Of a stretch of DNA of 43,294 nt, positions 10,002 to 37,527 are shown piece after piece (the first letter of the stretch is position 1; each line of letters begins with the position of its first letter). Position numbers and translations under genes: made by a program. The DNA is from Candidatus Limicola stercorigallinarum. Lineage in GTDB: Bacteria; Actinomycetota; Coriobacteriia; Coriobacteriales; Coriobacteriaceae. The DNA lies in NCBI GenBank assembly GCA_018711625.1, contig DVID01000049.1:1-43294 (forward strand), read 5' to 3'. The notes under the pieces were generated by a model that saw nothing but the letters and a program-made list of their open reading frames with translations, did no database searches and was not told the origin of the DNA.

Positions 10002-10075
10002 TGGCTGGGGCAGAGGGATTCGAACCCCCGTAACCGGCACCAAAAACCGGGGTCCTGCCGCTGGACGATGCCCCA
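10002..10075 (-). tRNA. tRNA-Gln (anticodon TTG)
   Basis: The minus strand reads a full cloverleaf: acceptor TGGGGCA pairing with TGCCCCA, discriminator G and an encoded CCA (10002-10004). The anticodon loop is TTTTGGT with anticodon TTG. The T-arm is GGGGG, TTCGAAT, CCCTC. A TACACT box lies upstream on the minus strand. It is followed by a terminator hairpin and the trailer repeat described separately. Confidence 0.95.
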
Positions 10076-11272: not shown

Positions 11273-11346
11273 TGGGGTACCGCCCAGCGGCGGGACTCCG
11301 GTTTTTGGTGCCGGTGATAGGGGTTCGAATCCCTTTGTTCCAGTCA
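11273..11346 (+). tRNA. tRNA-Gln-like second copy (anticodon TTG), possibly degenerate
   Basis: 74 bases on the plus strand fold like the tRNA-Gln at 10002-10075. The acceptor TGGGGTA pairs with TGTTCCA using two G-T pairs and one T-G pair. The anticodon stem and loop are the same, with anticodon TTG. The T-arm AGGGG, TTCGAAT, CCCTT is intact. The 3' end reads TCA instead of CCA, and I see no clear promoter or terminator. It could need CCA repair, or be a decaying copy. It also lacks the trailer element found after the other tRNAs. Confidence 0.65.
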
Positions 11347-11383: not shown

Positions 11384-11538
11384 CAACCAAAAACTATTCG
11401 ATTTGTTGCAGTTTGAGGCTGACCTTCAAAATACACGGCCAAAGCCTGACGCTGTGACCTGCGCTTATGTTCCACGCGAAGACCGGTCTACTCGGAGGGT
11501 GCACTTTAATCTGCAACTAATCGAAAAGTTTTTGGTTG
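11384..11538. repeat. Long-hairpin element, copy 1
   Basis: A 28-base left arm (11384-11411, starting CAACCAAAAACTATTCG) is the inverted complement of the right arm (11511-11538) at 26 of 28 positions, leaving a 99-nt centre. The centre aligns with that of the element at 37385-37527 (shared GACC..CAAAATAC, ACCTG.G.TT.TGTT and GACC.G.CTACT..GAGGGT-like blocks), while the arms of the two have unrelated sequence. Inside, ACCTTC can pair with GAGGGT. It lies 37 bp after the tRNA-Gln-like gene and encodes no protein. Confidence 0.75.
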
Positions 11539-19241: not shown

Positions 19242-19258
19242 ATGAAGAAGCCTCCGTT

Positions 19259-19400
19259 TCTTCCATCCGGACTGTACCGTCGGCCCCGGACTCTCACCGG
19301 GTCAGCCGCTTACGCGGGTCGCGGGCTTCTGATGCCGCTGCGCCTCAGCGCGCCTGCGCACATCAGTTACCGCCGGTAGGGAATTGCACCCAACCCTGAA
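19259..19400 (-). ncRNA. FMN riboswitch (RFN element)
   Basis: The minus strand contains the conserved RFN blocks in order: AGGGTTGGGTGCAATTCCC, ACCGGCGGTAACTG, AGCCCGCGA, GTGAGAGTCCGG, CCGACGGTACAGTCCGGATG and GGAAGA. A variable GC-rich hairpin sits between the first pair, as in the family. It ends about 20 nt before the ribU start, overlapping the ribosome-site region, so control may act on translation initiation. It should repress the uptake operon when FMN is plentiful. Confidence 0.97.
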
Positions 19401-19449
19401 ACTATGTTTAGTAACTATACTCCTTTTGTAGCGTGACGTGCGCGGATGT

Positions 19450-20550: not shown

Positions 20551-20647
20551 TGACTTGCCGGAAACTGCATAAAATAGCCTGTAGACTGTATAGCTTTTTC
20601 AACAAAGCGGCGGTAAATCGACGGTTTTTCTGAAGGGCTCGTTCCAG

Positions 20648-20800
20648 GTGGACAAAATTCCGAGAAGTCGGCGATAAATCTTGGCTTTTGGCGGTGCAAA
20701 TCGCCCATCGGAGAGATTCGGGTAACGAAACCCCAGGATAGGTTTATGCACGGAGGCTTCAGACGGTTCAGAATCGCCGACTTCTCGGATTTTTGTCCAC
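20648..20800. repeat. Long-hairpin element, copy 2
   Basis: The left arm 20648-20675 (starts GTGGACAAAATTCCGAG) and right arm 20773-20800 are inverted complements at 27 of 28 positions, with a 97-nt centre. Read on the minus strand, the centre contains CCTGGGGTTTCGTTACC, matching CCTGGGGTTCTGTTGCC in the element at 37385-37527. Inner pairings are possible: CCTATC with GATGGG, GTGCA with TGCAC, GGGT with ACCC. It fills the gap between convergent murB and apbE and could also end transcription from both sides. No protein is encoded. Confidence 0.8.
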
Positions 20801-20878
20801 TTGAGCTCTTCGTCTTGGTTAACGTGCCGAGCCGTCCTCACTAATCAGGCCTGTTAGACGTTTCGGCAGCGTGCGGCA

Positions 20879-37322: not shown

Positions 37323-37384
37323 TACAGGTGCCGCTTTCCGGCATGAGCCACCGCTATATCGCGTTCATTGTTGATACCGAGAGC

Positions 37385-37527
37385 AAATGGATGCGGTTTT
37401 CCGACGTTTAGCGATGGACCTCAAAATACCTGTCTATCCGGCACGGCTTCTACCTGGGGTTCTGTTGCCGACATAGGACCAGCTACTTGAGGGGTACGGC
37501 TAAAACGTCGGAAAACCGCATCCATTT
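37385..37527. repeat. Long-hairpin element, copy 3
   Basis: The left arm 37385-37410 (starts AAATGGATGCGGTTTTCCG) is the exact inverted complement of 37501-37527 apart from one bulged base. The 90-nt centre can fold further: CCTCAA with TTGAGG, and CTAT.CGGCA with TGCCG..ATAG. It shares central blocks with copy 1 (CAAAATAC, GACC.GCTACT) and copy 2 (CCTGGGGTT..GTT.CC). It lies 62 bp after ppx and next to the tRNA-Leu(TAA) trailer element. It could also terminate ppx. Confidence 0.8.

Follow-up and report, generated by a model that had tools for sequence, protein, structure and literature searches.

The window, by which is meant the whole 43,294-nucleotide stretch analysed here, carries three long hairpins, E1, E2 and E3, which are its three strongest inverted repeats (Table 1); their arms are complementary as claimed in the initial annotation, with a bulge in addition in E3. 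E3 is bordered by a Ppx/GppA-type phosphatase gene on one side and by a tRNA-Leu on the other. As single strands, the hairpins fold with z-scores of -7.1 to -8.7 relative to dinucleotide shuffles. Directly upstream of E1, a tRNA-Gln-like sequence at 11273-11343 (33.8 bits, anticodon ttg) may be a decayed duplicate; a normal tRNA-Gln occupies 10002-10075 on the opposite strand, ∼1.2 kb from the low-scoring copy. An FMN riboswitch (102 bits) is located at 19251-19407 on the minus strand.

Table 1. Coordinates of the three hairpins and their parts within the window; the strand of an element is that bearing the core as AACAAAASCSCAGGT.
Feature	Position	Strand	Observation
E1 (F1 family)	11384..11538	-	Inverted repeat; fold z -7.1; centre score 73.7
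E1 left arm	11384..11411		26/28 complementary to right arm
E1 inner box CAAAATACAC	11427..11436		
E1 core GACCTGCGCTTATGTT	11456..11471	-	
E1 inner box GTCTACTCGG	11486..11495		
E1 right arm	11511..11538		
E2 (F2 family)	20645..20803	+	10 genome copies; centre z 1.2-5.3
E2 left arm	20648..20675		27/28 complementary to right arm
E2 core-like motif AACGAAACCCCAGGATAG	20724..20741	+	
E2 right arm	20773..20800		
E3 (F3 family)	37385..37527	-	Inverted repeat; fold z -8.5; further F3 copies; centre score 49.9
E3 left arm AAATGGATGCGGTTTTCCGACGTTT	37385..37409		25/25 complementary to right arm
E3 inner box, degenerate partner of the GAGTAGAC/GTCTACTC inverted repeat	37419..37432		
E3 core CTACCTGGGGTTCTGTT, reverse complement of AACAGAACCCCAGGTAG	37450..37466	-	
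E3 inner box CAGCTACTTGAGG	37480..37492		
E3 right arm AAACGTCGGAAAACCGCATCCATTT	37503..37527		

Dispersed families and the anatomy of their centre

BLAST searches against the host genome (G000, 1.96 Mb in 49 contigs, assembly completeness 95%) identified each hairpin of the window as one copy of a dispersed family, with E1 assigned to F1, E2 to F2 and E3 to F3. Fifteen full copies of F1 and ten copies of F2 are present in this genome, and two further arm families, F4 and F5, carry the same centre as F1 and F3, one centre being common to at least four host arm families. The core pattern ACAAAASCSCAG, with one mismatch allowed, occurs 86 times, compared with 18 occurrences of the reversed control. 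Within the families of a single genome the arms are 0.85-0.96 identical, and the centres are less conserved. F4 is nested within several F1 copies, forming composites of ∼315 bp in the host genome; several of these are near-identical (L041, L042, L047, L050, L051), indicating that the composite itself has been amplified. A degenerate F5-like arm at 37327-37349 (5 mismatches in 23 positions), ∼35 bp from E3, suggests that an older element may lie beside it.

The logo of 96 oriented elements reads cCGAGTAGAc - ~18 - AACAAAAcCGCAGGTAGa.GcgtTG.g..TTTT..GtCTACTCGG, in which the inner blocks (cCGAGTAGAc ... GtCTACTCGG) constitute a conserved imperfect inverted repeat flanking the one-sided core AACAAAAcCGCAGGTAGa. 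The unit accordingly runs from one arm through ∼10–17 bp, the box GAGTAGAC, ∼20 bp, the core AACAAAAcCGCAGGTAGA, ∼25–30 bp, the box GTCTACTC and ∼10–15 bp to the inverted arm; the arms lie outside the inner boxes, and their inner ends are usually TTTT/AAAA. Length is identical in every recovered copy of F1 (15/15), F3 (11/11), F4 (14/14) and the family of genome G008 (12/12), although centres within these families differ by approximately one third, which argues for selection on the geometry of the element. In two further genomes, G002 and G034, arms are found essentially only as inverted pairs with near-fixed spacing (22 pairs at 115–118 bp and 33 at 107–109 bp, respectively; none with the reversed-pattern control), and neither these pairs nor the host arm hits listed by BLAST include one placed around a gene.

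Against a profile built from 94 centres, E1 and E3 themselves among them, the centres of E1 and E3 score well above their shuffles (∼12–13), and the z-scores of F4 (7–11) and F5 (15–24) likewise contrast with those of the ten F2 members (Table 1). The relatedness of all three centres proposed at the outset thus survives statistical scrutiny for E1 and E3 and not clearly for E2, which shares only CAACAAAACCCCAGGaTAG with them; E2 and F2 are treated as a separate repeat family with a weakly similar centre, whose membership of the superfamily is doubtful. Most F2 copies (L056-L063; ∼20590–20645 in the window for E2) also retain a left extension, ATGCATAAAA..TGTATA..CAACAAA.., that is absent from the other families.

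Distribution, arm diversity and the nature of the hairpin

At E<=0.01, a centre model, R1, built from the host genome alone as sequence only, with no base pairs, matched 35 of the 37 genomes of the host family; elsewhere in the order, 4 of 23 genomes had a match. Class-wide, across 248 genomes at E<=1e-4, family f1 accounted for 46 matching genomes and f5 for another 5, and none was found beyond the family and this one related family. E1 and E3 belong to a large superfamily in the Coriobacteriaceae (Collinsella and kin), the named carriers including Collinsella sp. An2 and C. provencensis, and the further copies with the same centre anticipated in the initial annotation are abundant, with copy numbers ranging between species from 0 to at least 30. 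Inverted arms scoring >=14 flank 61 of 62 sampled copies from relatives, all located via the centre with the arms unused, and the one exception is interrupted by a contig end; random anchors in the same loci attain this score in 1 of 300 cases, and samples of one copy per genome agree, with few armless exceptions (e.g. L169, L178, L360).

Searches beyond bacterial chromosomes gave no match of the centre consensus to plasmids and, for phage, just a marginal 33-nt match in one mycobacteriophage; four arm 19–22-mers were not matched exactly in any viral contig searched, and an origin of the arms by copying from phages was rejected. One viral contig (L300) matches the box-core pattern, with no obvious arms on inspection. 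The open-access literature (subscription papers being outside the scope of the search) yielded nothing relevant on repeats of this kind in Collinsella or the Coriobacteriaceae.

Comparison of 90 elements from many genomes places arm identity between genomes at 0.50, close to the shuffled value of 0.47, and centre identity at 0.49 compared with 0.25 for shuffled centres; for elements of the same genome and the same arm family this order is reversed (arms 0.93, centre 0.64). The description of unrelated arms around related centres thus stands at the scale of the bacterial family, with arm identity at chance and centre identity above it, and the centre is constant across the family with long arms that differ in nearly every lineage, the opposite of ordinary miniature transposons. 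The accompanying idea of a stem of any sequence is apt between lineages and fails within a genome, where the arms of each type are a dispersed, conserved repeat as opposed to arbitrary stems. Single-linkage clustering, generous in merging, distinguishes at least 22 arm types, and several unrelated types occur among four copies from C. provencensis alone.

The two arms of a copy change in concert: in 6 of 10 families, co-changed and still-paired arm positions exceed those of re-dealt arms, the observed value being attained by no more than 16 of 1000 shuffles, and in a seventh family (G007) by 67 of 1000. Arms conserved at each locus and devoid of covariation had been named as grounds for abandoning the initial reading; the arms are indeed conserved at orthologous loci of sister species, and they covary among the copies of one genome. 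Such co-change, together with the very stable single-strand folds and with runs of A/T in several arms, as would befit bidirectional terminators, could be accommodated by a structured RNA family with a long stem and specific loop, such as substrates of RNase III or regulators resembling terminators, a reading that we consider quite improbable. An RNA stem transcribed from one strand would tolerate G.U pairs and not A.C, and arm mismatches across the 96 elements show no such asymmetry (65 G.U, 71 A.C; p=0.67), which counts against an RNA hairpin. RNAalifold predicts no pairs in 28 aligned centres, leaving the proposed covarying inner helices unsupported as conserved RNA structure, Rfam yields no family on the elements at gathering or permissive thresholds, and the strand of the core has no visible bias relative to neighbouring genes on inspection. 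With a structured RNA disfavoured by the mismatches, the centre fold and the Rfam result, the elements are best understood at the DNA level, as a hairpin or an inverted binding unit, and the co-change of the arms is better explained by copying between arms or by constraint acting on DNA, whether hairpin or duplex.

Sites, insertion and turnover

Elements are intergenic, at 12 convergent and 3 divergent sites where genes were called with a simple codon-usage script. Downstream of the phosphatase gene, relatives with a readable site (e.g. G001, G006, G010, G014) lack an E3-type element, and presence at the E3 site is lineage-specific; the comparison covers fairly distant relatives, some with a different gene order, and the site in G003 did not permit a judgement. 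Neither excision nor insertion was observed between close strains. An unrelated hairpin of 141 bp with arms GTTCGGGCCTCAAATGGGCACCACAT lies downstream of the same phosphatase gene in G013 (L304). Elements of the sister species G011 and G015 are in places contained within longer repeats of ∼400–860 bp, the presence of which differs between the two (L321, L325, L330, L332, L333).

In 11 arm families, no target duplication was detected, direct repeats not clearly exceeding those of permuted pairs, and no empty palindrome, that is, arms lacking a centre, was found among the arm hits as an insertion target. This bears on the interpretation of the elements as ordinary MITEs, with every arm type representing the terminal repeat of a separate DDE-type insertion sequence and the centre surviving as a relic of one ancestor supplied with new ends, which would account for dispersed intergenic elements of ∼150 bp with long terminal inverted repeats and for the nesting of F4 in F1. 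That origin is improbable: besides the lack of target duplication, terminal inverted repeats are not conserved across the family, no autonomous partner with the same ends was found (arm pairs of G002 and G034, and the BLAST-listed host arm hits in the 95% complete assembly, contain no gene), one centre of 70–90 bp is kept by all of the 22 or more arm types, and exact length alongside divergence of a third of the centre is not the outcome expected of neutral decay within a MITE.

At three orthologous loci, arms carry 2/103 substitutions and boxes 5/113, compared with 45/148 for the remainder of the centre and 87/655 for the flanks, a contrast that is partly by construction, since the limits of boxes and arms were drawn by eye on the family logo. 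The low divergence of arms could reflect selection on resident copies for some function in the host, or gene conversion between copies, instead of transposition. Inverted binding sites of a regulatory or chromosome-organising protein, whose DNA-binding domain is species-specific and evolves together with the arms, would be consistent with these little-diverged arms and boxes, the fixed spacing, the conserved inner inverted repeat and the convergent intergenic placement; lineage-specific presence at the E3 site, the coexistence of several arm types in one genome, copy numbers that vary so widely between species, and nested and overwritten copies nevertheless render a host-functional DNA site of this kind unlikely.

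The variable part of the centre, diverged by 30% at orthologous loci, exceeds its flanks (13%), which hints at gene conversion between copies in addition to constraint. Sister species carry elements with different arms at one orthologous locus (L323/L331), and at another (L324/L333) a B copy has its left and right arm variants exchanged, with a centre differing by approximately one quarter. All three observations would be expected of modular repeats with no dedicated mobiliser, spread, homogenised and swapped via gene conversion and template switching; conversion, however, accounts for replacement at occupied sites and not for arrival at new ones, and leaves the family-wide persistence of the core unexplained, making recombination as the sole driver very improbable.

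Relation to REPINs and a model for spread

In REPINs, the inverted ends are conserved, the spacer is less conserved but of set length, and changes are compensatory (PMC3116915), and the REP doublets of REPIN/RAYT systems share with the present elements their short inverted conserved ends, less conserved set-length spacer, intergenic position and tens of copies, as well as class-specific palindromes that differ between species around a constant tag (PMC3116915, PMC3686654, PMC3733652). Co-varying sides and the lack of a detectable target duplication here extend the likeness, and the fixed lengths and highly identical arms of these families correspond to inverted conserved ends with a spacer of set length. 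The differences lie at the ends and in the partner enzyme. On reading the sequences, no GT(A/G)G-tagged palindrome end, and hence no GTAG-tagged REP hairpin, was seen; GTAG is present in the inner boxes and core in the wrong orientation for a 5′ tag on an arm, and the constant motif is internal, including a one-sided core of 15–18 nt. No cognate RAYT gene with the same flanking repeats was encountered: no arms lie beside the RAYT-like genes examined, and some genomes with elements have no detectable Y1. Correia/nemis and ERIC-type MITEs are similarly foldable, dispersed, intergenic imperfect palindromes of ∼130–200 bp, but keep their termini, whereas here the termini differ by lineage, the centre is kept and target duplication is not seen (PMC10969869). 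Integron attC sites, defined by conserved RYYYAAC/GTTRRRY ends and an integrase nearby, serve here only as an analogy, in that variable inverted arms accompany one conserved part.

A further parallel in the arms is offered by the TIR repeats of TIRYTs, which, in the part of the TIRYT account drawn on here, are long, unrelated between species, present as several families per genome and linked to Y1-type enzymes (PMC3733652). The single Y1 (RAYT-like) transposase of the host, of 264 aa, is likewise flanked by repeats of this sort (L285, contig C44), but these, GGTCAGTTGGGGACGTGTTCC, are not the arms described here, and a family-wide conserved centre does not feature in that part of the account (PMC3733652). 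The GGTCAGTTGGGGACGTGTTCC repeat also adjoins several elements in G008. None of 13 arm types probed was found near the Y1 genes at 20 loci; five genomes (G011, G014, G015, G021, G023) have elements and no Y1 match, and one (G017) has Y1 and no elements. RAYT/Y1 was rejected as the mobiliser on the grounds that the host Y1 has other flanking repeats and that Y1 presence does not track the elements, and the search found no mobilising enzyme for them. It is possible that a former RAYT has been lost, as in Pseudomonas REPs (PMC3686654). As the elements depart from REPs and REPINs in the tagged end and the cognate gene, and from DDE-type MITEs in partner, target duplication and termini, they are filed as a REPIN-like variant; REPINs are the nearest known kind, and the assignment is to elements that probably work like REPINs, not to REPINs themselves.

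The explanation that we judge somewhat more probable than the opposite is that E1 and E3 are REPIN-like non-autonomous DNA hairpins with a family-wide core and lineage-specific arms, the spread and overwriting of which depend on reading by two factors. As to the mode of movement, we infer that copies would spread and overwrite one another in the form of a DNA hairpin, cruciform or folded from a single strand, or else of a duplex that is bound at its two arms, with the arms read by a factor present in the given lineage and the core and inner boxes by one shared throughout the family. Were the arm-reading factor to change or to be displaced by a new one, a new arm type would spread with the core kept, which would produce unrelated arms around related centres. 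A stronger form, in which the elements constitute a new class of mobile DNA hairpin, with a family-wide enzyme reading core and boxes, arms serving as a replaceable address for a lineage-specific second factor, and whole arm pairs being exchanged even at the same site, is put forward only tentatively, as rather unlikely.

Conserved ends are the usual hallmark by which bacterial miniature elements are recognised. Ends that are lineage-specific, combined with a family-constant centre and a near base pair-exact length, provide a testable case of palindromic repeats and recognition factors changing partners, and the natural arm types, of which these common gut bacteria hold dozens, offer material for finding the factor that would read the arms.
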